Below, one piece after another: positions 17,801-57,316 of a stretch of DNA of 64,000 nt; position 1 is the stretch's first letter, and every line of letters starts with the position of its first letter. The position numbers and the translations under genes were made by a program. The DNA comes from Rugalucina vietnamica (Eukaryota; Mollusca; Bivalvia; Lucinida; Lucinidae). Under the pieces are notes generated by a model. That model did no database searches, had not been told where the DNA came from, and was given only the letters and a program-made list of their open reading frames with translations. The stretch lies in the NCBI GenBank assembly GCA_964017185.1, contig OZ024869.1, forward strand, positions 890,501 through 954,500, read 5' to 3'.

Positions 17801-20800
17801 CATGTTTTCCTGATGCTCAGCTATCCAACCTTCCAGGCTCTATCAGTTTTGTCTACTTTGATATTTATGATACTGGTATCTGTATCATGATGTTGAGCTT
17901 ATATTCACATATTTCCACAGGTGTCAGTTGGTCCTGATATCACTGTACAACGAGGTACAACGGTTGTAGCTGAACAGTTAGATGAATTTGGAGATGTTGT
18001 CGATGCTCCTATGGAAGGTACTGTCAAACATCTAGAATATTCAGAGACCTGATAATTTGTTCATGAATGTGCATGGAATTCTTGTTATTGATGCTTATCT
18101 TTCTGATTGAGCTGTTTCCTGACCATTGCTTACTTTTACATTTTTATGAACAAGAAGAATTTATTTTAGAGCCGTTGTATTTGCTGGCAGAATATCATCT
18201 AAATGAATCCTGATGTCCCTTGAATTGAAAATGGAATCCAATCTATAAACAGAAGGCTCTGTGACCTAGTGATTAAGATACTTTCCTTGTAAACCTGGCT
18301 TAGACCATGAAATTTAACAACCAATCGCTGAACATGGCATAGCCTACATGGCTCATTTGGCATTCTCTTACTTACTCTACTAAGTAGCTGTTATGTTATT
18401 TCAGACACCAGTTCATCAGAGCTAGGCAGTGAGAGTAAAGCCTATCCTTACATCGCCAGTGAAGATTTTGAAGATGTAAAACCAGAGGAGTTGTATAAAT
18501 ATATGTGGGGCTTGTGTCTGGCCTCAGGCTCTAGTGGAGATAATATATCACTACCTGGGGGTACGCCAGGGGGCTCCATTATAACACAGTCAGTGCTACA
18601 GGATGATACAAAATGTGAGTAATGAACATTACAAATTCCCGGTGTCAGGCCTCAGCAATATATCTTTGCCTGGGGGTACGCCAGGGGGTTCCATTATAAC
18701 ACAGTCAGTGCTACATGATGATACAAAATGTGAGTAATGAACATTACCAATTTCCTGTGTCAGGCCTCAGCAATATATCTTTGTCTGGGGGTACGCCAGG
18801 GGGTTCCATTATAACACAGTCAGTGCTACAGGATGATACAAAATGTGAGTAATGAACATTACCAATTCCCTGTGTCAGGCCTCAGCAATATATCTTTGTC
18901 TGGGGGTACGCCAGGGGGTTCCATTATAACACAGTCAGTGCTACAGGATGATACAAAATGTGAGTAATGAACATTACCAATTCCCTGTGTCAGGCCTCAG
19001 CAATATATCTTTGTCTGGGGGTACGCCAGGGGGTTCCATTATAACACAGTCAGTGCTACAGGATGATACAAAATGTGAGTAATGAACATTACCAATTCCC
19101 TGTGTCAGGCCTCAGCAATATATCTTTGCCTGGGGGTACGCCAGGGGGTTCCATTATAACACAGTCAGTGCTACATGATGATACAAAATGTGAGTAATGA
19201 ACATTACCAATTCCCTGTGTCAGGCCTCAGCAATATATCTTTGTCTGGGGGTACGCCAGGGGGTTCCATTATAACACAGTCAGTGCTACAGGATGATACA
19301 AAATGTGAGTAATGAACATTACCAATTCCCTGTGTCAGGCCTCAGCAATATATCTTTGTCTGGGGGTACGCCAGGGGGTTCCATTATAACACAGTCAGTG
19401 CTACAGGATGATACAAAATGTGAGTAATGAACATTACCAATTCCCTGTGTCAGGCCGCAGCAATATATCTTTGCCTGGGGGTACGCCAGGGGGTTCCATT
19501 ATAACACAGTCAGTTCTACAGGATGATACAAAATGTAAGTTATCAGGACTGATAGTTCGTCTCTCACTAATGAGAAAGACCATCATTATTTCTTGAATAG
19601 TGCTGATGTGTGTTGGTGAGTTCTTTGATGGCTGACTAGGCCAATTCTGGCTCTAAACTGTCGGTTGCAAGTAGAGCAAGTCAATGTCATAGAGTCTGAT
19701 GGTGGCACATTTGTTTTGGCTTTGCGCTCTCTTCGCTTTCTTTCAGCTTCACAGATTCTCTTCTTTTCATAAAGAGCTGCCCCTTTGTTGATGAGACCTC
19801 GCCACTTTGATCGCTCCTGTGCAGTCTGTTCCCAGGACCCCATTGGTATTTCGAAATCCTTCAGAGAGGCTTTGAGGGTGTCTTTGTAGCGTTTCTTCTG
19901 GCCACCTTGAGAGCGCTTTCCCTCCTGTAGTTCTCCATAGAAAACTTTCTTTGGAAGTCGCGCATCAGGCATTCTTATAACATGGCCAGTCCATCTTAGC
20001 TGTGCTAGCTTTAAGACTGTATGCATGCTTTGCATCCCTGCTTTCGTCAGGACCTCTGTGTCTGGAATCTTGTCCTGCCACTTGATTTTTAACAACTTTC
20101 TCAAACAGCTTAAGTGGAAATGGTTAAGTCTCTTTGCATGGCGTTGGTATACTGTCCAGGTCTCACATGCATACAAGAGGGTTGGCAGTACCACAGCCTT
20201 GTAGACTTTCAGCTTGGTGTCAAGCTTGATTCCATTTCGCTCCCAGACATTGCACGGAGTCGTCCGAATGCCACACTAGCCTTTGCAATTCTGGCAGTGA
20301 TCTCATCATCAATATGCACTGCTCTGGAGAGAGTGCTTCCCAGGTAGGTGAACTTGTCAACAACTTTCAGTTTTTGCCCATTCACAGTGATGGTTGGTTC
20401 ATTATATGGCTTTCCGGGCGCTGGTTGGTGTACAACCTCTGTCTTTTTTGTGCTGATTGTGATATCATAGTTATCACATGACTGTGAGACTTGATCCATG
20501 GCTCTTTGCATTTTTGCCTCTGTGCTGGCATTCTTATCCATATCATCTGCATAGAGGAGCTCATCTAGCACATCAGTCTGGACCTTAGTTTTGGCTTGCA
20601 ACCTTCTGAGGTTGAATATGTTGCCATCAAAACGGTACCTGATTGGAAAACCAGTGTCACTGTCCTGAAAAGCATCCATAAGCATGGCAGAAAACATCAT
20701 GCTGAACAGTGTTGGTGCCAGAACACAGCCTTGTTTGACCCCATTTGTTACTTCAAATGGTTCAGAGAACTCTCCATCATTTTGCACACGTGCCTGCATG

Positions 20801-23800
20801 CCATCATGAAACTGCCGCACCATTGCTATGAATCTGGGTGGACAGCCAAACTTGGCCATGATTTTCCAGAGTCCATCACGACTAACAGTGTCAAAAGCTT
20901 TGGTGAGGTCAACAAACATCATGTATAGATCTACATTCTGTTCTTGGCATTTCTCCTGAAGCTGTCTTGCTGTGAAGATCATGTCTATTGTCCCTCTGTC
21001 TTTTCTGAATCCACATTGGCTTTCTGGGATAAGTCCCGTCTGATCAAGATGAACATTCAGACGATTCAACAGAATTTTTGCAAGTATCTTCCCAGCAATT
21101 GATAGGAGGGAGATGCCTCTGTGATTGTCACAGACTTGAGGATTTCCTTTCCGCTTGTATAGGTGGATTATGGATGCATCCTTAAATTCTTGTGGGATAG
21201 CCTCCTTTCTCCACATACAGTGAAACAACTTTGTCAGTTTCTCTGCCATGGGTAGCCCCCCAGCCTTGTAAACTTCGGCAGGAATTGCATCTGCACCTGG
21301 GGCTTTGCCAGATGATAGTTGTTGAACTGCTTTTCTTGTTTCCGTAACGGTAGGAAATTCATCTAACAGAACATTGCACTCTATCTGTGGAAGTCTGTCG
21401 ATTGCATCCTCATTGATGCTTGATGGTCGATTAAGCACACTATTGAAGTGTTCTGCCCACCTTTCCAAGATAGCTTCTTTATCTGTGAGAAGAGTGTTTC
21501 CATCTGCACTGAGCAATGTGGTGGCTCCAGAACTCTTTGGACCATAAATGGTTTTCAGTGCATCATGAAATTTCTTCATGTCCTTTCTATCCGCAAAAGA
21601 CTGAATTTCTTCTGTTTTCTTCCTCAGCCAGGAATCTTGCATGTCCCTAAGCTTGGTCTGAACTGTCTTACAAATGTTGCTGTAGGCTGCTTTCTTTGAT
21701 ACTGAGCTAGTATCATCTTGATGTGCCTTGTGCAATCGGTGCTTTTCTTCAAGAAGCCTCTGAATTTCGTCATCATTCTCATCAAACCAGTCTTGATGTT
21801 TGCGAGATGGATGCCTAAAGGTGCTTGCAGCTGAAGAAAGAACTGTTTTATGGAAAACTCTCCAGTTTTCTTCGGGGTCCTCTGAACTGAGATTCATTGC
21901 ATCCAGTTGGTTGCAAATGTCTGTTAAGAAATCTTGTCTCATGCTGTCTTTATTCAGCTTTGAGACATCCAGTCTCTTAGGAGCTTTCTTGCCTTGAGGT
22001 CGCCTCGCAGGCTGTATTCTTAGGTTGAGTTTGCTGACAACCAGTCTATGATCTGTCCAGCAGTCTGCACCACACATAGTCTTTGTCACTTTAACATCCT
22101 GCCTGTCTGTTCTCCGCACTATGACATAGTCTATGAGATGCCAGTGTTTGGAACGGGGATGCATCCAGGATGTTTTGTTCCTATTAGGTAGACGGAAGAC
22201 TGTGTTGGTGATTAGAAGGTCATGTTCAGCACACTTCCTGAGAAGCAAGAGACCATTGCTGTTGCACTTTCCAACCCCTTCTGGACCTATAACTCCTTCC
22301 CAGGTCTGGTGGTCTGTACCCACTCTGGCATTAAAGTCGCCAAGAAGGATAAGCTTGTCTGTGCGGGGTGTTGCAGAAATAACATTGTCTAGATCATCAT
22401 AGAACTTGTCCTTGGCCTCATCTGGATTGGTCATTGTGGGTGCATAAGCACTGACAATAGTTGCATGTTTATTGCCTGACAGAGGAAGTCTCAATGTCAT
22501 TAGACGGTCATTAATGCCTTTTGGCAATCCTGACAGCTTACCAACAAGTTCTGTTTTGATGGCAAAACAGGACTATTGGTTTAATGAATGGAGCCTCCTC
22601 GTCCATTGGTGTGATATGAGCTGCCTCATGGGAAAACCAACAATCTGCATAGGCAAAAACAAAGGCGCAGACCAGCTTCGCTGTAACCACAAAGCTGATC
22701 AGTGCCATTGTTTTCGCTACATGGATAGCACGATTCCTCTACTTCCTAAATCCAAAATTTCCAGCCTCGAACCATCTTCTTTGACTGTACAACTCGGTTT
22801 ATGTTGGACCTGGTTGGAACCCAAAGTGTTGGCTTTCTCACGCACAGGCTCATATTCTGTACCCAGGGATTCAGTATGGCATCTGTTGTTACTGTACTAC
22901 TGAATGATACATGTTATACTCTACATGAGCCGTGACTCGAGAAAACCAGTCTTCGGGGTTTCCGACCAGGTCTGACATTAATCGGTCTGTACAGCCTCAG
23001 AAAAAGGCTAGAAGCTTGAAATTTTGGATTTAAGAAGAGAAATGTTACTATCCGTGTAGGGAAAACAAAGACGCTGATCAGCTGTGTAGTTACTGTACAG
23101 GTGATCTGCACCTTTGTTTTCGCATAGGCAATAATCCTGTTTTCTCATGACACAGCTCAAGTTATTTAAGTGTGGCACAATAGCTTGCAGCAGCATGTAT
23201 AAAGTTATAGAAGAGAAAGTTTTTAGTTACTGAAATAAATGTGCAGTTTTATTGTGCACTTAATACTGAGTTACTATGTTTCTGAGTTTTGTCCAAGGAA
23301 CAGTTTGCTTTAAAAAACTGTCTGTTTGAAAATACAGACTAGAAAATTCAACTTCAAAATGGTCTATTATTTAATATATTTTTCCCTGTAATGCTGTAAT
23401 CTATCTTCAATCTTGCCAGTGTTTCAGTCTGAGTTAATAAACACCCTGAAGAGGGCTAGAGAAGGAGTAAACCAACAGGGTGAAACATACAACAATATGC
23501 CCTATAGTTGATATTTTTCCTGTCAATGCTATAACCTCTTTTTTCTATTACCAGTGTTTCAGTCTGAACTAACAGATACTCTGAAGAGAGCTAAAGAGGA
23601 GAACATCAGCTCTGAGAACCTTATACTGGAAATAAACTCACTTAAGTAAGTATTTAATGTCTGGTTTGAAGTGCTGCTATGCACTGTAGATAATAATGAA
23701 ATGAACAAAATAACTCCTTTCTTCAGTTTTGTTTGGTTAAGTCTTGGAAGAGCCAAACATTAAAAATAGTTAAATACTGTAAATTCTGAAATTTTGGGGG

Positions 23801-26800
23801 GCATTTATTTCGGGACTGACTAAAACGCTGAATTTTCTGCTGAATTCAGCAACCTGCTGATCAGCGAAAACATACTAAAACGCTGAAAAACTGAAATGCT
23901 GATTTTTTTTTCTTAGTCAATTTTGAACTTTGTTTTGCCAACCTGAACCGCATGAGAACATACATGTAAGGGTTCTAATTCTCATGAATTAAAATGCTGA
24001 TTTCTTGTAGCCATGTATGGTGGTTATTTACCAATGTACTGAAGCGATTTTCATGTATAAATTACATGTAAGCGTAGTAAAGAAGGTTAATACACCATCA
24101 CTTAGGGTAATCTAGTTCTTGTTTTACAACTTTTAAGTAAGGGTCCTGATGAGCATTAAACCCATACCCATGTTTGTACGTGTATTTATACATACTGGTT
24201 TGTGACTTACTTGGACAAGTCTTAAAATGAAGGATATCCACTAAGTGAAGGCTGGTTCTTATTGAGACTTTTGGTTCGGATTGCATCAGTGCATTTTCAT
24301 AAACTAGGTTGCACATCTGTGCATAGTTTTTACACCGGACTGGTCACGCTTACAACTTCGAAATTAATATCGTTATGGAAGTATGCTGGTGTCTTATAAA
24401 GGAGAAACACATTTTTCATAGTTTATAACTTCATTAACAAACACATCAAAACAAAACAACAAACGATTCAACAACTTATACATTAACAGAAAGGCAAAAC
24501 AACAAACATAAACATAATAAATCAGGTATACATTAACAAAAAGGCAGAACAAATAATTAAATCAATTATACACGTTAAATATCAGGCAAACTGTCAGTGT
24601 ATATTCTTTAATTAACAAACAAACAAACATAATTAATTAATCCGCTATCTCAAAGAACAATTCTTTAATTGAGTTTAACACATTATTTATCACAGGTATT
24701 CAATGCACTTAATAATCATTTGTGGCAATAATCTTTTTTGAATATAACATCTCTATTTTAAACATATTTCGCATAGAAATTTGTTCTTGGGGCAAGCAAT
24801 ATCTATATGTTTATCTACACAGTGTTTATGAAAACTTATTTTGCATGCATTACACTTAATCATATCTCCTAAGCATTCTGGAAGACGGCATTTACAATGC
24901 AATTTTATTGAAACGGATTTATGCTTTGCCGTGTAACGATTTCTGTTTGGCCTCCTTGGTAAAGTTGGGAAGCTGGAGAGAATACCAGATTCCAAGCAAG
25001 ACTGTAAATGCTTGCGCATAGATTTGGTATCGAATGTAACTGTGGGGTTCAGTGTACCCTTAATACAAAACTCTGTAAGATGCGCTATTGCAAAAACTCC
25101 ACAATCAACACCATTTGTTTGTTTTTGAGTATCATTAATAATGACTTCGAGGTCCTGATCGGTATTTTTCCCGTACATTATGCCTAACTGTATTGATAAA
25201 CTCGGCGTCATTATGGAGCGCGATGGCCTGTCGAACCCTAAACTATCGAACATGAATATGCTGTCGGTTTCATCCCTGAACGTGACGACCCAGTGATCCT
25301 TACCAGTATGATGAATTTGACATGCACGTGATTTATCATTTGAAAGCGGGTTCATTACTGACTGTTGCTGTACATGCCAGCGACTTTCTTTTGTAATGTA
25401 TTTTGGAACTTTTTCCGGAAGTTGTAAGCCAGATATTGATGGAAATTGATTTCTTGCTATTATATTAACTGCTTCGATTATTTGTGAATTTAATTTTTCA
25501 TTATTTAAAATTGCTTCTTTGTCTGAAATTGTTAAGCCTAAATTGGGAAGCCATAAAGAATTTGGTTGTGTTTCTATTTGTTCTGTTACATCAGGAAGTT
25601 CGTCAACGCCTACATCGCTTCTAGAATTATTGTTCATAGTTACCAGGTCATCTGTTGAATCGGAACATTCAGGCACAGGAATTTCAAGTTTCGGTCTTTT
25701 GGGTTCAGGGACATCAGCCTCGGATGTATCAAACAAATTTTTCTTAGATTTTTTCAAAATAGATTTTGGGGTGCGCCGCGGAGACACGATGACTACCTTT
25801 GGTGTTCTAGGAGTTTTTGTCGGCTGAATAGGAGTATCACATAAATTCGAATTAAGTTCTGGTTTTACTGTTTTCGGAGTCGAGTGGGATAAAATGAATG
25901 GTTCTTTATTATCGGTTTCGGATGTTAAGTCATCATCATGAAATGTACTATTAATCAAAATTGAATCTGGTGCCGCGATAACACTAGTTTCATCTACATC
26001 CCCTTTACGACCTCTTTTTGTCCCAGCTTTTTTATCTTTTCTAGTTCGGCTATTTTTACGCAGCTGTGTTAGATTTATTGCCTTCTTGTCTTCACCTGGT
26101 TCCATACCTATTGCCATCATGGCCGACAGAATATGACGACATCGACTAGTAGACGGGCAATTACACGTTTCTTTTGGGAACAGAGTCACAGCATATTTAT
26201 TATCGCGGCTACCTTTCACAACAAAACATTTCATTGCGGGAACTAAGCTTATTCCATTGTCTCTTAACGTTTCTTGGGCGAGAGATTTTTGGCTTAATTT
26301 TTGCTTACTAACGGAAGATTTTTTTGTAAGCGCGGGTTCTTCGGGGCTACTTGTCGATCTAAACTGACCATGATCTATCTCCTTATCGGTATCCGTATTC
26401 AAATCTTGGTTTCTGCGTTCATTATCGAGTACCTCAAGTTCACCCTTAATCATTTCAATCATTTTATCAGGATGACAAACGCGTTTCGGTAAAATGGCAG
26501 TTTCCGGATCTTTCAATGCATACCTAAATTTTTTCAGGAGTGTCATCTCTCCCACACCACAGAAGCTTTTCATTAATTCAGCAAGATCATTGCTTTGCAT
26601 ATAATATAGATACAGAACAATGTTATCAACTTCTTTCTCTTTCCATTCCGTCAATCTTTTTAATTTCGCGTTTATGCTTTCTGAGCAATTATTAGTAATT
26701 CCAGAATACGGATTGTATAAATCAATTTCTTCAAGGATCCAGCGTCCTGCGTATTTGGTTATAGTATCGCGAAGATTTGCGTTGAAATAATCTATCATTG

Positions 26801-29800
26801 GTTCGCTCCATGGTAACATTAGTTCTTCGACTAGAGAATCAAATTTTTCACGTGATTCGCACTGCAGCAGGGTTTTCACTCGACTATCATAAAATTGCAT
26901 ATCTGTCGGAGTTGCCCCATGTTTAGAAAGCCAAAATTTTAAATCTCTTAATATATGATTCCAACAAATCAATAATTGCGCGTTCGGAAAAACTTTTTCT
27001 ATAGCATTGACAATACCTGATTCTCTGTCTGTTACAATTGGAAAAGATTTACGACTTAATCTCGGGATTTTATCTTTAACTACTTCGAAAAACTGCTCGT
27101 GACATTTTTGAAATTTGCGCTCATGGACCATAAAAGCCAAAGGAATTACCGGATTTTCCTCGAACATTATATGTTGAAAGGCTAAAGTAGATACATAAAA
27201 ATCACCTAAACAAAATGTTGTATCATAAAACAAAGGAATGAGATCGCTTGTTTTAAGTTGTAAGAGTCTGTCAAATTCTTGAAACATATCAGTATAGCCT
27301 ATAACAACTTGAAGATCTGGAACGGTTTTTATTTCATGAATATACGAATCAATGTGATATACAAGTTCATGCAAATTATATAAAGAATCATGACCAAATC
27401 TCTTGTCTTTTCGTACATTATATTGGGCGTTTGCCACCTGTTTAACATTCCTAACACTAGAAATCCCTGTCATTTTTAAGGGAACTGTACTTTCTGAATC
27501 AAGTTTATCCTTAACTAATTTTGGATTTTCACCCCCACTGATTTTTATTTTGTTAATTACGGAGGGTAATGTCCTCTTATGTGGTCTGAATCCATTTTTT
27601 CTGTTTCCATGAGATGCACCTTTATATTCACTTTCATCACCTAAGTACTGAATGATTGTAACATGATTATAATCCGTACCGTGGTATCTTAACATAACTC
27701 TCTGGAATTTGTCACTTTCATCTTTTCCGTTTTTAATTCTAAAATAAGACTTTTCAATAATTTTGTCACCGTTTGTCACTTTGCTTTTCCCATAGTTTCT
27801 CCAGGTATACCCATCTGCGCGCCAGTCGTCCTTATTTTGACTTTGTTGTCTATCACTGAATAGGAACACACTGCCTCCCTTTGGTTGATACGGCGGGAAC
27901 GTTGAAAGTTTATTTGAATCAGGATTGTCCAACATTTCCGCAGCTTCAGAATGTTTAAGTTTCACATCACATGTTGTATATATAACGTCTGTAAAGTCTT
28001 CTAGGCCATCCTCACTATCACTGGTGTTGCTACCACCACCTCCTATCAGCAGAGTTCTCGATTGTACACTAACGGGTTCCATGGACTCGTATTCGTAGTC
28101 ATCGTCGTCAACATCTTCATCTTCATCGTCGTTGATCGATAGCATCTGAAACCTGTTGTTTGAAGTTGCCGATTCCCACCATGGAGTCAACGCTTCTACT
28201 GGGATTGATTTGCGTCTGAACGTCTTCACTCTCAGCACCGGCGCAGGGCGGACAGTCGTCGTCTTAGTCGTCGGGACAGTCGTCGGGATCACCTTCACTA
28301 CTTGCGCAGGGCGGACAGTCGTCGGAATCACCTTCACTACTGGCGTAGGACGGACAGTCGTCGGAATCACCTTCACTACTGGCGCAGGGCGGACAGTCGT
28401 CGTTTTAGTCGTCGGTATCACCTTCACTACTGGCGCAGGGCGGACAGTCGTCGGCATTGTCGTCGGCATCAGTCTCTGAATTTCCAACTCGATCCGTCTT
28501 ACCAAAGTTTCTGTGCCCTTAAAACTCAGATGAAGACCATCTCTGCTCAACATACGACGTTGTATTCTCCCTTCAGTCCAAAAATCTTGGTCATGATCGA
28601 GAAACCGAATGTCCGGATAACACTCTAATTTGGAAACCCTAAACAACGCGTAGTTTACCACTCTTGACGTCGAATTGATATCATTCAGAGTCTCATCCTT
28701 CAGCTTCTTCTCGAACTCGCTTGAAGCCCGAGGTAATATCGACGAAAAGATCACGTTGGCCCTAAAATTCAGAACGGGAGAACATTAACTTAGAGCATTG
28801 AATCATAAAGATCAAAGCTTTATATTTGAGATGTACTGTCTGTAATTCAATGACCCGTTGGACCTCGATAAATTATCTTAAATCAACAGAATAGCCGCCT
28901 CGTGGGAAAACCAATAATGTGTTTTTGACCAGGTCGAAGATGCATTTCATTATCGCATGAAATATTCATAATTTATACAACATGTACAAGGGATAGCATT
29001 TTTTTCTTTATATTCAAAGCAGCAAATTGGTTCTCATAATCTGCATAATTTAAATAATGATAAAATGAGTTTATATCTGTTATCAAAGATACAAGCACAT
29101 TCATACAGTAGCATGCGGGTATTTATACGACATAATAAACAATGTATCATTTGCTACTGTTGACCGACACACGTCATTAATTAAGGTGTGAATGATCACG
29201 GAAGGTGTTAACTGGCACGTGTCCTGTAATACTCAGTGCTCCTAATGACACCTTTGTTAATATGTGCCGGAGATTATGAAATTAAAAATTAGATGGTGCA
29301 GTTTCATGATTTATTTAGCAGGTTTCTTAAGAATATTATATAAATGGTAAAATGACAAAGTATGCATTTATACCTGTTATTAAAGATGAGTGTACATTCA
29401 TATTTGCTTGTTACTATATATACGACACAATAAACAATGTTACATTTGCCATTGTAGTCACATTATTCCAGACAGCAATAGATAAGCACTTAGGTTATAT
29501 GCCCACGTGATTAATGAGGTGTGAATGATCACGGAAGGTGTTAACTGGCACGTGCTCTGTAATACTCAGTGCTCCTAATGACACCTTTGTTAATATGTGC
29601 CGGAAATTATGAAATTAAAATTGTACATGTAGTTTTTTTTACATCTCTTCCATATAGTATTTATTAGGCATTAACACTTATATTGATAAATATTTTTACG
29701 AAAATCCTAACCACTTTACTGATAAATAACAGAAAATATGTATTTATATGTATTTACATATTGTCTGTACAACGTTATAAATGATGTTGTACTTTTATTT

Positions 29801-31235
29801 AGGGTGTTTTCTAAGCTGGTTTGCTGTTCCAATATTCATGTGATATTAAAGGTAATATTGAAAATAAAAATGTTTATTTCTATCCAAAAGTTGAGAAAAA
29901 GAATAAATCTTTTTGATATTAACAAAATTAACAAAGAAATGGTTTAGTAAGCAAGTGAAACTGTACTTTTGTCCGCACTTCGATCTTCCTAGAGGTTCAG
30001 ACAATAAATGGTGATTTCCATCAGGAAAACATGTCCATGAAATGTAAATCCCCTTAACTCCCATTTATGTAAACACAGATTGTTGGCACTCGTTGGAACC
30101 GTCTCGCCAAGGCGATTCTAACGTCTCCCAACAATCATACACGTACACGTATTTTGACCAAAAATGATAAAGATATCAAATTGTTTTTCTGCCGTAAATT
30201 TTCATTTTTTACAACTTAAAAATCTCTGTATATTGCATGTGCATGTTTTCAACTTGTGTCTAATTACTTACGTCGGATTTAGATCTTTAATGTCTTCGTA
30301 GAGGCGTTGGAATTTCTCTAGAAGATTCTCAGCCGAGTCTCGTGGCAAGTTGTTAATGCCGCAGTGTACAGCTATGACCTGAAATTGAACTTGTACAGTT
30401 AGAATATGAAAACAAATTATGGTTGTGACTAAATCTGTAACCAGGATCTGTCACAGGAGATGATTAGAGGCTGGACAATTTGGATTTAGAAAGTAGAGGG
30501 AGTGTACTATCCGTGTAGCGAAAATAAAGGCGCTGATCAGCTTCGCAGTTACTGTGAACCTGATCTGCGTCTTTGTTCCCACTTAACAATATTCGGTTAT
30601 GCCTGGGTACTTGACCAGTTATTTGGTAAATAAATTTGGTAAATAGAGAACAGAACGTAACAAATGATAGCGAAAAGGGACTCTTTTCCCAAAAAGCGGC
30701 ACAACGAGATGATTTTGTTATAAAGCCATATTTGTCATTTGTACAGGAAATTAATTTTGCTACTTTGAAAATTTTGGTGATAGACATCATTACACGGTTG
30801 TAATCGGACGGTAGTAGCTAAATAAACAAAGTTGTCATAAGGTAATAATGCGCGTGCCAGTCATTGCATAACTCAATATTTCACACTTAACAATTAAAGA
30901 TGTTCTGTCAGAAGGTAACCACATTATGACATAAAGTCTAACACATGCGCTCTAACATACTGATCTACTATCTTATCATCTTTAATAAATAATTTGTGCC
31001 GCATCATGAAAACCTCTTACTGCAATTCAGTGGCAGATCAAATTTACTATTCTTTTCCGTGGGTTTAAGAAAGATATATATAATGTTGATTCTTTATAAA
31101 TGCAAAGGGTCATTACGGCCTATGAGCATAAATACATATATAATCTTCGCCAAAAGTTTAGCACAGTTATTTGCGTAAAACAACATATAGAATCGTATAC
31201 TGGTAGTGGAGCATGAATCATACCATTTCAGTGTG

Positions 31236-31280
<45 letters not shown>

Positions 31281-34200
31281 GAGTCGGACTGAGTTAGGGA
31301 CATGCGCGGATCTTGAACGCCAAAAGAGTTGCTTATGATACACTACAATTCAGTTATTTCAGGGAGCAAAATAGTAGAAGCATGTCATACTACATGTATT
31401 AGAATTTCTGAAATATTTAATGTCTTCAAAAAAGTACGATTGCTCTTTTTAAAATTACTCTAGGTGTGAATTAACACGGTAGGTGTAGGCTAGCACGCGC
31501 ATATATTGCCTTATGACACCTTGGTTGATATACACATTGCTGACTCTCCAAATATCCTCGATTAAATAGTTCGATCATCGATTAGAAGCAGCCCAAGGCG
31601 GGTTGTATATCGTAACTAATAAACCAGCTACCGTTTATCAATAAGATTACGATAAAATAATGCATGGCTATACTTATGCTTAAATACAAATACAAAACAC
31701 AAATACAACATTATCATTATAATCAGGAAAACATATCCGTGCAATGAATACCCAACAAATATTATTATCATCAGGAAAACATATCCGTGCAATGAATGTC
31801 CCGCGTTTAAATAGCAAAACTGGGGTACGCAGGAGTATACCTAATTTTCTTATTTTTCTCCAAAACATAGATTGTTAGTACTCGTTAGAACCGCCTCTAT
31901 GCATTCTATGTTTTGAGCAAAAATAAGAAAAAAATCAGCTGAACATTTTCAAATTTTAACGCTCAAAAATTCTCTGTATGTTACATGGGCAAGTTTTCCT
32001 AATGTTCTTTCATTTTGAGTGCTTAAAATACATATTTCATGACATGAGATAATAATGATTCCGATTTTAATCATTTTATACATATCGATACCAACGCATA
32101 ATAGCAGAATACATAGGACAAAACCCTATAAAATGATGGAATTGATCTCCCATCTCGTGTCATGTACAGATCTGACATAACAGGTAAAATTGTACTTACA
32201 GAAGCTGCTGAGATGACTTCTTTGGAGTTCGGAAAGGTCAACAGGTCTTCAACCATACATCCGGAGGAAAATAAACACTTAATCTTACTGTCTTGCACAT
32301 ATTCACTAAAGTATTTCACTTGGCTATGTCCAATAATCAAAGCCATTTTGATCACAAACACTAACACTTATAATTCCGAAACAGAAAAATATATATTTGA
32401 CACTAAATTCACAGATAATCCCAACAGTTCATGAAACTCAATTTTAAATTGTAGACCGATTTAGGATACTGTGCGCTTTAAAAAGACAACAAAAACCTGA
32501 GAGAATCAATCAAAAAGCTTCTTATTTACAAGTCAAGAAAACTATAATATAATTGGTTTCCTGATAATTGCCTACTTTTACCTTTTAATTCAATTGGTTA
32601 CATCATTGTAGCATATAATCCCTGTCCTTTAATTAAAGAGCCGAATTTGACACATTGGTCAGCTCAGTCAATCGTGCGATAATTTAGTTATTATGATGCC
32701 CCCCCTCCCCCCCCCATAATTAAGTAATTTGTCACTTAATTAAATTTATAGTAAAACATACAATGAGTCTTAATTATTCAAATATGTTTGTCAGTCAAAT
32801 TAACACAATACTTTATTTCATTTGATCTTCATTGTCATTTTCTTCTCAAAAAGAAAAGGCCCCAGGACAGAAAGCCTGTAATTTGCCGGTTTAGATAACT
32901 GCGAATGGTGCTCAAATTTGTTTTTTTTTTATTATCAATTTTGATTTGTAAGTCAACAAAAACACTTCCCCTAAGTCAAATTATATGTATAAAAGCATAT
33001 ATGTATAAAATCAGCATTTCAGTTTTTCAGCGTTTTAGTCTGTTTTCGCTGATCAGCAGGTTGCTGATTTCAGCGGAAAATTCAGCGTTTTAGTCTGTTC
33101 CATTTATTTCACGAATTTTCTATTTCCAAGTTATTCGTGAGGCCTTAATTTTGCAAACGAGTATTCATGTGGTCTTATGTCTTATAGTGTTTAGGCTATC
33201 ACATACATGTAGTATATGGCAGAGGTGCACCATGCCGGGGATTTTTGTAGACATATATTTTTTGAAAGCCTGTACCCTAAGCTACTAAATGCCGCTTGTT
33301 AGCACTCTGACTGCTGGGGCTTTATCATGCCAGAGCGTGTTACGTGCGTTACCAAAGTATGATTTTTAAATTCAAGCTGCTAAGGGGATCACCAAAATCT
33401 TTGGCAAAAAGCAAATTACTGACAAGATTTTTACCTTAAAATATGTAGCAGAGATGTTACCTAATCTAACAGGACTAAATTCAATAATATTTAGATTTCA
33501 TGACTACTGGTTCAACAAAAGTAACGTAAATAACCCGTGTAATTTGGCATATCCACCGTGTTTTGTTTATAATAAAATATAGTTTAGACAAAATTACAAA
33601 ATACGATTTATATTATAGTTATTTGCAGTCCTTGCCCTTTAAAATGACATAGAGTAGTGATCTCTGTGACCTTCCATCACTCCACAGATGTTGATTGTCT
33701 TCCCCTACCCCCATTTAAATGATATGCCCATTAATAAACATGTCCCAGCAGAAACAGAACAAAGACACTTCCTTTCCTGAACAACATCCCAGTTTTCGAA
33801 ATAAAACTTCCATAGGTATTAAAAGCACACGAACAATCAACTGCAGACCATGCTTCATGATAATGGTAACATATTTTACGTAATGTCATGGTAACAAGTA
33901 ACAATTTTGTATTTTCACTATAGAATCATAAACTTATGATTAATTGCAGATTATCATTTTTCTCTCACAGTTATTTCAATTAGGAAATTGAATTTATTGA
34001 ATATCTGTCCTGAAAGGTATTTTAAAAAAGCACTCAAAAATCAACTACAGACCATGCTTAATGATAACGGTAACATACTTTACGTAATGGTATGGTAACA
34101 TACGTAACAATTTTGTATTTTCTCTATAGAATCAAATACTTATAATTTATAGCAGATTATCATTTTTCTCCCATAATTATTTCAATTAGTAAATTAAATT

Positions 34201-51122: not shown

Positions 51123-54100
51123 TTAAGTCGGGGCCATCATAGAGTCTGACGCCCGACCCACCGGCGTGCAATTAAAGAAGGCAGCATAGTTATCAACCAT
51201 GATTGGGTTAAAAACTAAGCATGCAGACTGTCGCATAACATTCAAGTTATAACCTATACGTCTGTAACGTGTTATGATTTTTCCGAACTGAAGAGAAAAA
51301 TCATTTATTCCTTTAAGTTTCTTTAATTTGTAAACCAAGTCACCATAAAATTCAGGTTCCGAAAGGCCCTCACTTAAAAGTGTCTTTAACCCAACATTAT
51401 ATTTGGAAATCAATTCATAGTGTCTACGATAAAATTTAGAAAAGGTTTTTCGAAGTTTATGATACCGATAGCCCTGTTGGAGAAGTTTTGCCGTTAAACA
51501 TTTATTTCGAGCGTTGAAGTCTGTAACATGATTGCAGACTCTAGCAAACCTAATAAGTTGCGAAATGTATACACCATAAGAAGCACGACGAGGAACGTCA
51601 CCATCCAAAAAAGGAAAATTTACTATATCAAAATCAAAGTCATCGCGCTTGTCATAAATTTTAGAAGAAACAAATCCATTTGCAACAGAAAGATGTAGAT
51701 CTAAAAAGGGGGCTTCGGTATCTGAGATATTAGCTTTGTTCAACTGAAGTTCAGGTGGATAAATTTGATTGACCATACCTTCAAAATAAGGGTGGTCAAT
51801 GTTCAAAAGGTCATCGAGGTACCTAGATGTGGAATTAAAAGCCTCGATAACATCAGCTTGATTATCATGGTTAAGAGAATCCATGAAATCTCTTTCGTAG
51901 CAGTATAAAAATAAATCAGCTACGAGAGGTGCGCAATTTGTACCCATCGGAATTCCAACAATTTGTCTGTATAACTTGGTCCTCCCAAATCTAATATAAA
52001 TATTATCAAGGAGATAGGATAAGGCGTCGCACACATTCTGACATGACCAAAGGGTATACCGACTTTGGTCAGAGGAAGTGAAAAAAGCCTTTCTGTCATT
52101 ACATGCCAAATAAAGTGAACCATAGTTTTTTTAAACGCCCTTTTGAAGGTCCACTCTATCAAATCCAGAAGTTTTTCTTTAATTAGATTATGTGGTAATG
52201 TTGTATACAGAGTAGAAAAATCATATGTGGACAAGCTTGTCGCACGGAACCCTCTACACTTCAATTTACTGAGCACCTCACCAGAATTTTTTATTGACCA
52301 AAACCAATTTTTATTTGAAGTTTCATACACTGTCTCACAGTATCTTATAACATGAGATTTGATAGCAGTAAGACAAGAAGTTAATAATTTAGAAAGTTCA
52401 GTGGTAGTACAAGAGCTAGAATTTGCAATAAATCTAGCTTTGTATGGTCTTTTGTGAAGCTTAGGTAACCAATACATCGTAGGAAGTTTGTCTTGGCCTT
52501 CATTGACACAAACAGAAAACTTAACAGGTAAATCGTTTAAGTGGGCATTTACTACAGACACCTCATCAGTATCTGTCTCCAGATAAGCCCTGGTACCATC
52601 AAGCTCCTGTTTTAAGGTGTTAACGTAGTGAAGTCTACAAACGACAACAACATTGTTTGCGGCTTTATCTGCCGGAACCAAGACATACTTTCTATGAAAT
52701 TCTTGGATACCCTGCTTCAAATGCCTAAATGACGATTTGGGTTTAGGAGGTAAAAGATTAGTATTTTGTGAATAAAACTTAATACGTTTATCCACGATAG
52801 TGAAGATACTTCTTTTCCATTCTTTAAGAGCATTATCCTCAACACCCTCTCGTTTACACCATCGATTACCGAAATCATTTAATGCAGATGCAATCTCCTC
52901 TCTACATTTGTCGAAATTAATGTAGGAAGGGAATCTATATTTCGGACCTTTAGAAACAATTTTGCGAATTCTAGAATCCGAAATTATTTTTAAATTTCCA
53001 GTAACTATATGTCCAGCTGGTTGATAAACATATTTTGAATCTTTACAATCTCAAGACTTAGGAGTATTAGCATGGATATCAAGATCAGAAACAAGTTTAT
53101 TGAAATTAAAAATAGTATTTCTGATTGGTTTGTTATATTTGTAACAAATAATAGGAGGTTCTGAATTTTGGAAGTAGGTAGGTATAGACTGTATCACTGA
53201 TTTATCCTGGAATATGCTTGGTAAATCAATAAAGTCAATTCCTTTATTGATGAAAGGAATTTTAATAAAACTTCTAATGTGATTAGATTCGGAATCGATA
53301 AATGGACGAAGAGCATGCTGAGTATAACATCTTGTTAACAGTGCAGCGTCATACATTTGATGATTTCTATCGTAAAATCTATTAGCCTCTGTGTCCAGGG
53401 AACGTAATGCAGCAATAGGTAGAGAACTAAGATAAGACAGCATTGGATGTCGACCGTGAATCCTTAGTTTAACAGCTAAATCATTAAGGGAAATGTTCAA
53501 TTTCAATGCAGCGCACCGTTTACGTTTGTCATTACCCCTTTTCCGTATACCATGAGATCTAGATTTACGTTTACGAGACTCTGAAAGTGTAAGTACATCA
53601 AAATCGGGCATTTTGGAAATATTGCCTTCATGGTAAATGTTGTCGTTAAATCCCAGTGGAAAGGGTGTTTGCAGTAATTTTATCCATTTAAGTTCAGTTT
53701 CAAATCGTTTAATATTTTTGAATCTAACTGAAGAATTTTCATCATATGAGATTTTCTCCACTGGTTGAACTTTAACATCATAGGGAGAATGACCAGTGCG
53801 CTTAAAATGCTGGTACAGAAAGGTATCATTATTTTTGGGCTTTCTGATTCTACGATAGTGCTCACCAAATCGTTTTTGCAAAGTTCGACAAGTTTGTCCA
53901 ACATATTGCATCCTACAATTGTTTGTATTTCAAGTAAGAACATATACAAGATCCATTGATTTTCAGTCTAAATCAGAATCATTAACCACTGAAAATGTCC
54001 TACCATTCACAGATGAAGTGATAGTAGTCTTAGAGCATAAATGATTGCAACAGTTGCACTTCTTGGCATTGCACTTAGAAATACTAGGGTACATTCCAGG

Positions 54101-54433
54101 TCTCTTGAACGGATTAATATATTTACGTAAAATTGGTGATTTGAGTGGAGATAACCTAATCTGAAGATTATTACGAAACATATTAGAATTAGAAGCTCCG
54201 TGTAGATTAACAGTAGATGTCGAAAATAAATTAAGAGGTGTCACCCTAACAGTAGGTAATAAATTTTGAAAATTGTTAGTTGAATGAGGAATCCGTACAG
54301 TAGACGCGGCATGCAACCTAAGGGGAGTTAATGTAATTCCTAATCTTTTTGTGATAGTCATAGTTGGGAGTATTGTGTTGATACTGCCAAAAGGAGCGCG
54401 ACACTCATACCGGTTATAGAATAAATAATGCAC
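51123..54433 (-). CDS. Penelope-like (Naiad-type) GIY-YIG endonuclease-reverse transcriptase, candidate selenoprotein
   Basis: The reading starts at a GTG after a stop (54433); the first ATG is at 54361. Order: Cys-rich CNAKKCNCCNHLC; GIY-YIG domain from QYVGQTCRTLQKRFGEHYRR to RFETELKWIKLLQTPFPLGF; basic region (SRKRKSRSHGIRKR); a conserved block YQPAGHIVTGNLKI...KGPKYRFP; then the RT with STLYTTLPHNL, GIPMGTNCAPLVADL and SRYLDDLLNID (YLDD). Three in-frame TGA codons (53963-53965, 53930-53932, 53051-53053) stand where relatives appear to have Cys, consistent with selenocysteine recoding as I recall reported for some bivalve Naiads. One frame change within the RT is shared by both tandem copies. 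Confidence 0.82.
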
Positions 54434-55355
54434 TTAATCGTAATGCAAAATCTTTCGAATGAAAGAAAAAAGGTATAACCGAAACCCACATCTCAGGTCC
54501 ATGTCTAATACAAGTCCATGGATAGAAACGTAAGAATCGCTTATACAACGAGATACGAGTGACGGTCAACTAATGACCTTCAATACGGTATCGAAGAGTT
54601 GTGGTAGTTAGAGATAGGAAAATACAAACTGATTGCAAGCAATCCCTGAGGATTGGAAAAATAAGAGCATTAAATGGATGTACGGGGAGACTTTTTAGGG
54701 CCGCCACACGGCACAACCACAAGAACTCTGATATAAAAAGGTACAAGTAGGCAAAGATCAGGAAAAGGCGCAATCAGAAAAAGATTCCCACTCCAAAAAC
54801 CGAGGTGGGAAAAAACCAAACTAACAATCAGGTACTTATACCATGAAACATATCGTAAGCCGAATGAGCAGCTATTTTCCCAATAGGTGGCCACTCAGTT
54901 ACCTTAACTTAACTAAAAATATGAAAACATACATAAGGCGCCAACAGCACAAAAAATTTTAAACACCAAGACATAAAACAAAAAGAACCACTACAGAAGT
55001 ATCGACTTGGAACGATCAGTAACACAAAGTTACTGGCGGGCTTAAACCGGTTTTACAGGTACCTAACCTCACCCTCAGCTTCTGCAGTGGTCCACAACAT
55101 TTAGTTAGTTCTTCGGTCCTCGTGGTGAATCTCTAACTAGTCAATGAATCATCAAGAACAAACAAATAAATCATGATAAACATCCTGATGAATCAAAAAC
55201 CAGGACTCACAGATTGAGTAAGCTGCCCGACGATGGAGATCCCTGGGCGCCGAATAACCTACTAACTCCGGAGCAAAAGAAAAACACCAGTTGGACCCCG
55301 GTGGGCCAAGCAACAGACAAGAAGCTCCGGCCCCAACCAACTAAAATGAATAGCT

Positions 55356-56858
55356 TTAAGTCGGGGCCATCATAGAGTCTGACGCCCGACCCACCGGCGT
55401 GCAATTAAAGAAGGCAGCATAGTTATCAACCATGATTGGGTTAAAAACTAAGCATGCAGACTGTCGCATAACATTCAAGTTATAACCTATACGTCTGTAA
55501 CGTGTTATGATTTTTCCGAACTGAAGAGAAAAATCATTTATTCCTTTAAGTTTCTTTAATTTGTAAACCAAGTCACCATAAAATTCAGGTTCCGAAAGGC
55601 CCTCACTTAAAAGTGTCTTTAACCCAACATTATATTTGGAAATCAATTCATAGTGTCTACGATAAAATTTAGAAAAGGTTTTTCGAAGTTTATGATACCG
55701 ATAGCCCTGTTGGAGAAGTTTTGCCGTTAAACATTTATTTCGAGCGTTGAAGTCTGTAACATGATTGCAGACTCTAGCAAACCTAATAAGTTGCGAAATG
55801 TATACACCATAAGAAGCACGACGAGGAACGTCACCATCCAAAAAAGGAAAATTTACTATATCAAAATCAAAGTCATCGCGCTTATCATAAATTTTAGAAG
55901 AAACAAATCCATTTGCAACAGAAAGATGTAGATCTAAAAAGGGGGCTTCGGTATCTGAGATATTAGCTTTGTTCAACTGAAGTTCAGGTGGATAAATTTG
56001 ATTGACCATACCTTCAAAATAAGGGTTGTCAATGTTCAAAAGGTCATCGAGGTACCTAGATGTGGAATTAAAAGCCTCGATAACATCAGCTTGATTATCA
56101 TGGTTAAGAGAATCCATGAAATCTCTTTCGTAGCAGTATAAAAATAAATCAGCTACGAGAGGTGCGCAATTTGTACCCATCGGAATTCCAACAATTTGTC
56201 TGTATAACTTGGTCCCAAATCTAATATAAATATTATCAAGGAGATAGGATAAGGCGTCGCACACATTCTGACATGACCAAAGGGTATACCGACTTTGGTC
56301 AGAGGAAGTGAAAAAAGCCTTTCTGTCATTACATGCCAAATAAAGTGAACCATAGTTTTTTTAAACGCCCTTTTGAAGGTCCACTCTATCAAATCCAGAA
56401 GTTTTTCTTTAATTAGATTATGTGGTAATGTTGTATACAGAGTAGAAAAATCATATGTGGACAAGCTTGTCGCACGGAACCCTCTACACTTCAATTTACT
56501 GAGCACCTCACCAGAATTTTTTATTGACCAAAACCAATTTTTATTTGAAGTTTCATACACTGTCTCACAGTATCTTATAACATGAGATTTGATAGCAGTA
56601 AGACAAGAAGTTAATAATTTAGAAAGTTCAGTGGTAGTACAAGAGCTAGAATTTGCAATAAATCTAGCTTTGTATGGTCTTTTGTGAAGCTTAGGTAACC
56701 AATACATCGTAGGAAGTTTGTCTTGGCCTTCATTGACACAAACAGAAAACTTAACGGGTAAATCGTTTAAGTGGGCATTTACTACAGACACCTCATCAGT
56801 ATCTGTCTCCAGATAAGCCCTGGTACCATCAAGCTCCTGTTTTAAGGTGTTAACGTAG
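55356..56858 (-). CDS. 5'-truncated Naiad-type RT, second copy
   Basis: Same RT as in 51123-52620, with GIPMGTNCAPLVADL, SRYLDDLLNID and the C-terminal FDFDIVNFPFLDGDVPRRAS. It lacks the GIY-YIG part because the copy is cut at 56858. One three-base difference removes a residue near RFGTKLYRQ relative to the other copy. Confidence 0.85.
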
Positions 56859-57316
56859 CCTTTTATCCATTTTTTTGTCGAAGACATCTCAGATCATTTT
56901 TGACCTGCATCCGGGTTTTTCCCATATGGAAAATGAAAAAGGCAACAAACTGCATCTCTTTAAAAAGTACTTTAAGATGATGTTTTTTACTATACAAGCC
57001 ATCATTGGTCCTTATTGTTATTCATTTTAATCGCTTTTTTGTGTGACGAAAGCTTTTGCAAAGAAAAATTAAAATCTAAAATCTGTGGATTTTGAAATTT
57101 TATGATCCATGCAGGCCACCGTAGATAAGATGCGTTCGGATTTTTTCCATAAAATATAGGCGTGTTCGGATCAAAGGCTCTGCTCAACAGAACGAGTCGT
57201 TTCGGTCCAGCGACTCTTAAGGACTCTCGTCGTAAGGACATTTGAAAAGCATTTCCACTCAGTCATGTCTGGAGTTGGCTTTGCAAGAGTCATACTGTCT
57301 GTCCGTCCGTACGTCC

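Follow-up and report, generated by a model that had tools for sequence, protein, structure and literature searches.

The window, a 64,000-nucleotide stretch of the Rugalucina vietnamica genome, carries a complete Mutator-like DNA transposon (MULE), which we read, with a probability of roughly 0.6, as a cut-and-paste element whose single gene encodes a polyprotein, the SGNH half of which is freed by a Ulp1-type protease. The terminal inverted repeats (TIRs), the 9-bp target-site duplications, the moved copies, and the domain set together with its conservation in relatives were all directly observed. That the element is a self-contained system for transposition and interaction with the host, as initially proposed, is an inference.

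The gene lies on the minus strand and is predicted to comprise three exons which, joined at GT-AG, give 1420 codons plus a stop with no internal stop, in agreement with the initial annotation. Predicted exon 1 (32200..32346) codes for blocks I (S8) and II (G29) of the SGNH domain and has a homologous exon in two related families, F2 (41%) and F6; predicted exon 2 (30272..30378) codes for block III (H54 and N58) and has a homologous stretch in F2 (60%) and F6 (39%). Exon 3, including the stop codon, extends over 24753..28761, within an open frame at 24753-28784, and starts with the remainder of the SGNH domain (28467..28761; S91, D159 and H162, placed by sequence alignment). All six modules attributed earlier to this one gene (SGNH, CG-1/WRKY-like, MULE DDE, SWIM, Ulp1-type and PHD) were recovered, and they are conserved in relatives. 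A Pfam search of the window protein bore this out in part: MULE and CG-1 scored above their cut-offs, whereas GDSL, C48, PHD and SWIM remained below theirs, even when searched as excised pieces. The weak C48, PHD and SGNH assignments are nevertheless firmed up by the matches and profiles obtained with the relatives.

The MULE DDE core (26679..27230), assigned by Pfam and alignment, matched the MULE domain PF10551 with 35.9 bits against a cut-off of 27.6, and its triad of D598, D663 and E779 falls at the positions read before. A SWIM motif, C951-x-C953-x5-C959-x-H961, was located by motif and alignment at 26133..26165. The presumed DNA-binding domain (DBD; 27600..28001), also found in relatives, matched CG-1 with 32.0 bits against a cut-off of 23.5 (1.1e-7), and CG-1 matches at E≤0.5 were obtained for six of seven aligned rows, the window included. 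The WRKY match of the window domain sits at the Pfam cut-off, and that of F3 exceeds it. WRKY domains are recognized by a WRKYGQK-like core and a zinc site; the corresponding core here is WRNYGKS, and an alignment of seven rows of the domain has no conserved Cys. The CG-1-like character proposed initially holds, but the domain is about equally WRKY-like.

The Ulp1/SENP-type cysteine protease (24966..25523; H1241, D1257, Q1299 and C1305) and the C4HC3 PHD finger (24756..24905; residues 1371-1420) were both identified by profile and alignment. The H-D-Q-C active site is invariant in all 10 aligned sequences, each of which gave a C48 match at E≤0.05, and the C48 match of F6, unlike that of the window protein, exceeds the Pfam cut-off. 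Among solved structures, the protease profile matched yeast Ulp1 (1euv, 9.8e-10), SENP8 (1.6e-8) and SENP1 (3.5e-8). The Ulp1 domain shares one frame with the MULE core in F1 (the family of the window element), F2, F4 (C12 copy), F5, F6 and F7; in the copies of F3 and F8 that were read, the two are in separate frames. For the C17 family, Ulp1 went undetected in a scan that also missed the Ulp1 domain of the window itself. PHD matches at E≤0.05 were found in 7 of the 10 rows, the C4HC3 pattern is kept in 9 of them, and the PHD profile matched the PHD of PHF2 (1.3e-10). Many histone-binding PHD fingers that read H3K4me3 have an aromatic-cage Trp; this position is Trp in F4, F6 and F7 and Ser in the window. 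The presence of the finger is upheld, but the suggestion that it reads chromatin is weakened for the window copy, and we dropped the view that H3K4me3 reading by the finger is proven.

The catalytic residues of the SGNH domain in the window protein are S8, G29, N58, D159 and H162; in F5, the catalytic D is changed to G (GGLH in place of DGLH). The top match of the SGNH profile among solved structures was 4c1b (2.7e-11), the LINE ORF1 esterase of ZfL2-1. According to the available part of PMC3905857, the H191/S228 pair of ZfL2-1 marks transposon esterases. Counterparts are present in the MULE rows (H54 in 3/3 and S91 in 6/6), and both residues occur in all five LINE rows and in none of three other SGNH rows. 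A tree placed MULE and LINE domains apart from those three others with a weak support of 77/82, which was not starred and involves long branches. At the sequence level, the window domain resembles a retroelement ORF1 esterase. SGNH pieces were detected in 7 of 9 families, with exon 1 only in F4; none was found within the few kb read upstream in F7 and F8. Given the change in F5 and the loss of SGNH exons from the F1 copies other than that in the window, the elements may not need the esterase in cis. One SGNH-Ulp1 relative, L085, has no MULE core between the two domains and lacks both GGG and the two transposon-type residues.

The element occupies 23812-33101 and is bounded by TIRs of 95 nt each, 95% complementary, found by an inverted-repeat search (left, 23812..23906, plus strand; right, 33007..33101, minus strand); the match of other copies also begins at 23812, and the runner-up inverted repeat in the region has arms of 30 nt. 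Although CATTTATTTC is present at both flanks, which had been taken as a duplication of 10 bp, the right TIR reaches 33101, and the target-site duplication defined by flank comparison is therefore the 9-bp ATTTATTTC (23803..23811 and 33102..33110). For MULEs, duplications of 8-11 bp, mostly 9, are the measure of membership. Perfect 9-bp duplications were found in six of the seven end pairs read in the genome; the exception is the pair on C10, whose flanks mismatch in register. The F6 family has TIRs of 503 nt (96%), and the target duplication of its C8 copy lies in a C-run and is ambiguous. No convincing TIR was seen in the stretches examined of F2, F3 and F4. An inverted pair of 126 bp (77%) is present at C12:18.60M. 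When viral contigs were searched once with the exon-3 protein, no relative was confirmed among them.

Two other readings, both improbable, concern what the element is. The window copy could be a relic, or a MULE-derived host gene that was domesticated and no longer moves. This reading, which we consider quite unlikely, draws on the fact that, of the copies found, only that in the window has every exon intact, those on C12, C14 and C1:18.66M being truncated or broken in frame. Against it, 40 related ends were found among the matches listed, near-identical copies share the same boundaries, and the three of them for which both ends were read, being 98.5-99.3% alike over their long segments, bear three different 9-bp duplications. 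We dropped the relic-only reading. The copies also sustain the earlier proposal of fairly recent movement; the likeness of the two TIRs does not serve as a clock. Least likely of all is that the MULE by chance adjoins a host gene or an unrelated retroelement fragment of which the SGNH exons are part. SGNH-like matches are indeed abundant in the genome (at least 142 and at least 150 in two listings), and the four non-MULE ones that were read are all LINEs. Yet the C-terminal SGNH half, with its DGLH (GGLH in F5), is in one open frame with the MULE core in F1, F5, F6 and the C17 family; F2 and F6 repeat the order of the exons, with intron 1 placed alike in F6; and identities are 44/34% for SGNH and 50/35% for the MULE region (F1-F2/F1-F6). 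Three F6 copies with both TIRs were found among the matches listed, and their TIRs enclose SGNH, DBD, MULE, Ulp1 and PHD on C8, SGNH and Ulp1-PHD on C3, and SGNH and DBD on C13. That these TIRs enclose SGNH and transposase jointly indicates that the hydrolase belongs to the transposon, as initially annotated, and a host-gene origin of its exons is largely refuted.

The role of the protease is where the preferred reading and a third alternative, which accepts the transposon, part ways. In the window protein, a GGGG run (residues 325-328; 28032..28043) provides a candidate cleavage site, LIGG|G, that is conserved in relatives. One such run per family was found in the frames read of all seven SGNH families, in the pattern [L/Q]xGGG, with L or Q at P4 in 7/7 and always in the linker preceding the DBD, 14-104 residues ahead of its anchor (the F4 "linker" being merely the frame ahead of the DBD). 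GGG was absent from 12 control frames (five other pieces of the same families, three of F7/F8 and four LINEs), and its chance per linker, estimated by shuffling, was 0.0002-0.026; the families share ancestry, so that these counts are non-independent. The likeness of [L/Q]xGGG to ubiquitin and SUMO tails raises the possibility that the Ulp1 domain cuts the esterase half from the transposase, and the conserved GGG suggests self-cleavage as a more specific role for the protease. Enzymes of the Ulp1 class normally require a ubiquitin-like fold in the substrate. The GGG run could be a hinge. It is conceivable, if unlikely, that the run is a flexible hinge only and that the Ulp1 domain acts in trans, stripping SUMO/NEDD8 or ubiquitin-like modifiers from the transposase or from host silencing factors, with no polyprotein processing. 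The solved structures matched by the protease are those of deconjugases, and 10 of 11 C48 matches near F6-type TIRs, two of the ten being read in part (L084 and L086), have no adjacent MULE-domain match; such short derivatives offer no long polyprotein for processing. A hinge leaves unexplained, however, both the L or Q at P4 in every family and the fact that the frames read contain no further GGG.

In the polyprotein reading that we prefer, the CG-1/WRKY-like domain would bind the TIRs and the DDE core would cut and join DNA. The Ulp1-type protease would cut after [L/Q]xGG in the linker, splitting SGNH off from the half made up of transposase, Ulp1 and PHD, and SUMO/NEDD8-like conjugates may be additional substrates. 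The SGNH part, of the LINE ORF1 kind, may be an accessory enzyme or a membrane- or lipid-binding module, and the PHD finger may tether the complex to chromatin, at least in some families. Weighing against this reading are the SGNH changes in F5 and in the other F1 copies, the features of L085, the Ulp1 result for the C17 family, and dN/dS values among copies of 0.38 to 1.48, which leave recent constraint unsupported for most of them. We are almost evenly divided, leaning slightly against, on a broader proposal: that this is a self-processing transposon in which a built-in Ulp1/SENP-family protease cuts the ubiquitin/SUMO-tail-like [L/Q]xGG|G that precedes the DBD in all SGNH-bearing families read, that the cut splits a retroelement-type esterase, ending in di-glycine, from a transposase-protease-PHD unit, and that class I and class II elements have the esterase, the protease and the chromatin finger in common as accessories.

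Cut-and-paste transposases are customarily viewed as single-purpose proteins. A MULE lineage with a retroelement-type esterase, a SUMO-class protease, a PHD finger and a conserved candidate self-cleavage site would suggest that a cut-and-paste transposon of eukaryotes processes a polyprotein, and that domains have been exchanged across the divide between class I and class II. It would also give further context to the SGNH esterases of mobile elements, the role of which is unsettled.

ULP1 regions in plant transposons were reportedly described by van Leeuwen in 2007, and CR1 is said to have esterase and PHD domains. As far as the available text of PMC2528002 goes, the ULP1 regions of plant MULEs and CACTAs likewise place a Ulp1-type protease on a DNA transposon, but they are transduplicated and occur in either orientation relative to the transposase, whereas that of the window element shares one frame with the core. 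The MULE DDE core, the SWIM finger (in some), the TIRs and duplications of 8-9 bp are common to MULEs such as the animal element Muta1 (available parts of PMC5225508 and PMC6446971). Table 1 of PMC6446971, in the part available, gives no SGNH, Ulp1 or CG-1 module for its MULE groups, the molluscan groups 15 and 19 included; it also leaves out the ULP1 of plant MULEs, so that little weight can be put on a module missing there. Rehavkus, compared by description, is also MULE-related with a 9-bp duplication and a PHD finger, but has a minisatellite, and the available text mentions no esterase or Ulp1 (PMC6446971). In fish, Helitrons likewise mobilise an SGNH hydrolase, Texim, which the accessible portion of PMC4021074 describes as a captured gene with no DDE transposase fusion, unlike the SGNH domain of the window. 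The LINE ORF1 esterase of ZfL2-1 (4c1b) has S, G, N, D and H together with the H191/S228 pair (PMC3905857, in part), and the SGNH domain of the window has their counterparts; in contrast to the LINE esterases, that of the window is part of a DNA-transposon transposase, with predicted introns and a Ulp1 domain.

On the minus strand of the window, three exons (32346-32200, 30378-30272 and 28761-24753) would be joined at GT-AG sites. The 1420 codons of the initial annotation were recovered at these joins, and its two introns stay predicted. In Pfam, only MULE (1.1e-8) and CG-1 (9e-6) exceeded their cut-offs in the window protein; of the other domains initially named, GDSL (4e-4; the esterase-like SGNH domain), C48 (1.3e-3; the Ulp1 protease), PHD (4e-4) and SWIM (9e-3) stayed below them, even as excised pieces. 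The evidence for these four predicted domains comes from relatives. An exon-3 protein query gave 47 matches in the genome, and those that were read were sorted into families F1 (that of the window element) to F8; a further family, on contig C17, was added through an SGNH search. F2-F8 are 24-55% identical to F1 over aligned parts.

In a 10-sequence Ulp1-PHD alignment, no sequence departs from H1241, D1257, Q1299 or C1305, and nine have all eight PHD ligands; the F5 frame terminates ahead of PHD. Scanned one by one at E<=0.05, C48 was detected in 10/10 rows and PHD in 7/10; MULE was found in 9/12 and CG-1 in 6/12, some of these 12 being fragments outside the domain. The alignment profile matched the solved structures of Ulp1 (9.8e-10), SENP8 (1.6e-8), SENP1 (3.5e-8) and the PHF2 PHD finger (1.3e-10), and the profile support anticipated for Ulp1 was thus obtained. 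F6 exceeded the C48 cut-off and F7 that of PHD. Where many PHD fingers have a Trp that forms part of the aromatic cage, the window protein has Ser, and F4, F6 and F7 have Trp.

The SGNH domain is a component of the transposon. It was found in seven of nine families and shares a single open frame with MULE in F1, F5, F6 and C17. It is complete in F1, F2 and F6; SGNH exon 3 was read in F3, F5 and C17, whose other exons are search matches only, and F4 has SGNH exon 1 alone. None was seen in the upstream regions of F7 and F8, read in part. The position of intron 1 is common to F1 and F6, and intron 2 is absent from F6. The terminal inverted repeats (TIRs) of F6 measure 503 bp, and copies on C8, C3:62.38M and C13 are listed with the two of them. 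The C8 copy, whose target-site duplication (TSD) is ambiguous within a C-run, holds SGNH, a presumed DNA-binding domain (DBD), MULE, Ulp1 and PHD; the C3 copy holds SGNH and Ulp1-PHD without a MULE match, and the part read of the C13 copy holds SGNH and DBD. Short derivatives with F6-type TIRs, such as C1:62436103-62441997 and C2:9264587, retain the Ulp1 part; in the latter (L086) the H, D, Q and C are intact and a PHD sequence follows. Ten of 11 C48 matches near F6-type TIRs lack an adjoining MULE match. At locus L085 (C9:23239950-23241400), SGNH is followed by Ulp1 in a separate frame with no intervening MULE core, and a resembling pair is seen, from coordinates alone, at C3:34170618/34171733.

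A profile of six MULE SGNHs matched the zebrafish LINE ORF1 esterase 4c1b at the top (2.7e-11), followed by bacterial 2hsj (3e-6) and PAF-AH (4e-5); the window domain alone matched a designed GDSL protein best (8e-4) and 4c1b second (0.0019). According to the available part of PMC3905857, H191 and S228 are conserved in transposon esterases only. The matching H54 is present in 3/3 MULE rows covering that exon and the matching S91 in 6/6. Both occur in 5/5 LINE rows (four from the same genome, plus 4c1b) and in none of three other rows, one designed protein included, so that LINE and MULE SGNHs have this pair in common. Several observations nevertheless count against a LINE-type origin of the MULE domain: the tree joins MULE and LINE sequences at only 77/82 with long branches, the catalytic Ser is missing from the LINE L082, the catalytic Asp is Gly in F5, and L085, which the tree does not include, is without both the H and the S. 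When two F6 copies were compared, dN/dS was 0.38 for the SGNH part (131 codons) against 0.57 for the linker; nine other comparisons ranged from 0.38 to 1.48.

A run of at least three Gly occurs once per family in the frames read of all seven SGNH-bearing families (C17 read except its end), in the linker 14-104 residues before the DBD anchor; because no SGNH exon 3 was found in F4, its linker is the frame preceding the DBD. The site reads LIGGGG in F1 (LTGGGG in the C12, C14 and C11 copies), LIGGG in F2, QSGGG in F3, LVGGG in F4, LSGGG in F5, QCGGG in F6 and QVGGG in C17. P4 is L or Q in 7/7 families, as in the tails of ubiquitin (LRGG) and SUMO (QTGG). GGG was absent from 12 control frames (five other pieces of F2, F3, F4 and F6, three from F7/F8 and four LINE ORF1s) and from the open frames of the F6 copies L078 and L084, which stop short of the DBD. 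Shuffling each linker gave chances of a GGG of 0.0002 to 0.026; their product, 2e-18, treats the families as independent and overstates the case, because they are related. The run could be a hinge. Since the same protein carries an Ulp1-class protease, we favour self-cleavage, in which this protease would cut its own polyprotein at the GGG site. Elsewhere in the linker, tandem repeats with steps of 39, 51 and 63 bp run in frame through window 28226-28466 and encode linker sequence; other families have low-complexity linkers of different sequence in its place.

The CG-1-like stretch of the window matched CG-1 at 1.1e-7 and WRKY exactly at its cut-off, and F3 lies above the WRKY and below the CG-1 cut-off. 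Eight of nine solved-structure matches were WRKY domains, every one at E>=0.056, so that WRKY kinship is a possible lead only; the core is WRNYGKS, and with no Cys conserved across the seven aligned rows, the WRKY zinc site is missing. In the C17 family, FAR1 (6.7e-7) stands in place of the CG-1/WRKY-like domain. There, locus L083 (C17:10450535-10452607) is a second MULE type: a single frame of 1448 residues encodes SGNH, the MULE core and a DNA-binding domain of the FAR1 type, with a linker of TTSQPTTNVRK-type repeats and one GGG within the part read.

The window element spans 23812-33101 (9.3 kb). Its TIRs, put at ~94 bp initially, are 95 nt long and 95% alike, and its first base is also where the ends of other copies start in an end search of the genome (1.09 Gb). 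Its TSD is ATTTATTTC; the duplication noted initially stands at 9 rather than 10 bp, the tenth base belonging to the right TIR. Perfect 9-bp TSDs were found in six of seven end pairs (window, C14, C1:18.66M, C17:24.06M, C6:5.48M and C1:64.01M), which bears out the expectation of further copies with 9-11-bp TSDs in five other pairs; the C10:10.92M pair has eight bases in common but out of register, and no perfect 9-bp TSD. At least 40 ends were scored, 32/40 being 86-91% alike to the query. Because no MULE frame was recognised, without Pfam, among the ORFs listed for 22 loci with such ends, and a genome-wide MULE scan had no match inside the four such pairs read, these elements look non-autonomous. 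Besides the window copy, F1 is represented by four near-identical copies or pieces, whose long segments are 97.9-99.3% alike. Window 30935-32270, with part of exon 1, is missing from the C14 copy, the C12 match ends at ~30238 of the window (7 kb beyond were read), and the frames of both are broken; the C1:18.66M copy and its adjoining duplicate both lack window 27235-32295. Given these deletions and broken frames, a full set of exons was found in the window copy alone, and among the SGNH matches listed exon 1 of its subfamily is whole only there.

By title and abstract opening, the literature listed (few subscription journals; Repbase outside its scope) contained no MULE with SGNH. The available part of PMC6446971 tabulates ~50 MULE groups without Ulp1, SGNH or CG-1, Rehavkus being the sole group there with a PHD, as predicted for the window element; this listing is not exhaustive, because the ULP1 of plant MULEs is missing from it. 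The corresponding part of PMC13359780, on arthropod MULEs, does not mention Ulp1, PHD or SWIM. Excerpts of other works describe ULP1 carried by MULEs and CACTAs of plants (PMC2528002; also via a citation in PMC9569675), GDSL domains of LTR elements and Penelope-like elements (PMC5408684) and of rotifer terminons, together with gene capture by MULEs (PMC6431247), Helitron-mobilised SGNH (PMC4021074; cited in PMC7599744) and an active animal MULE with TSDs of 8-9 bp (PMC5225508).

Within inferred intron 2 lies a 104-nt direct repeat (29184-29287 and 29517-29620, 97% alike). Immediately ahead of the element, 23376-23640 holds two similar exon-like stretches (76% alike) encoding coiled-coil-like peptides, and the element may have inserted in a host-gene intron. 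The minus strand of 19586-22572 carries what seem to be the endonuclease and reverse-transcriptase frames of a LINE. At 51123-56893, also minus, a set of reverse-transcriptase-like frames occurs twice in near-identical form, with a GIY-YIG-like frame (53051-53929) beside one of the two; these look like tandem elements, presumably Penelope-like.
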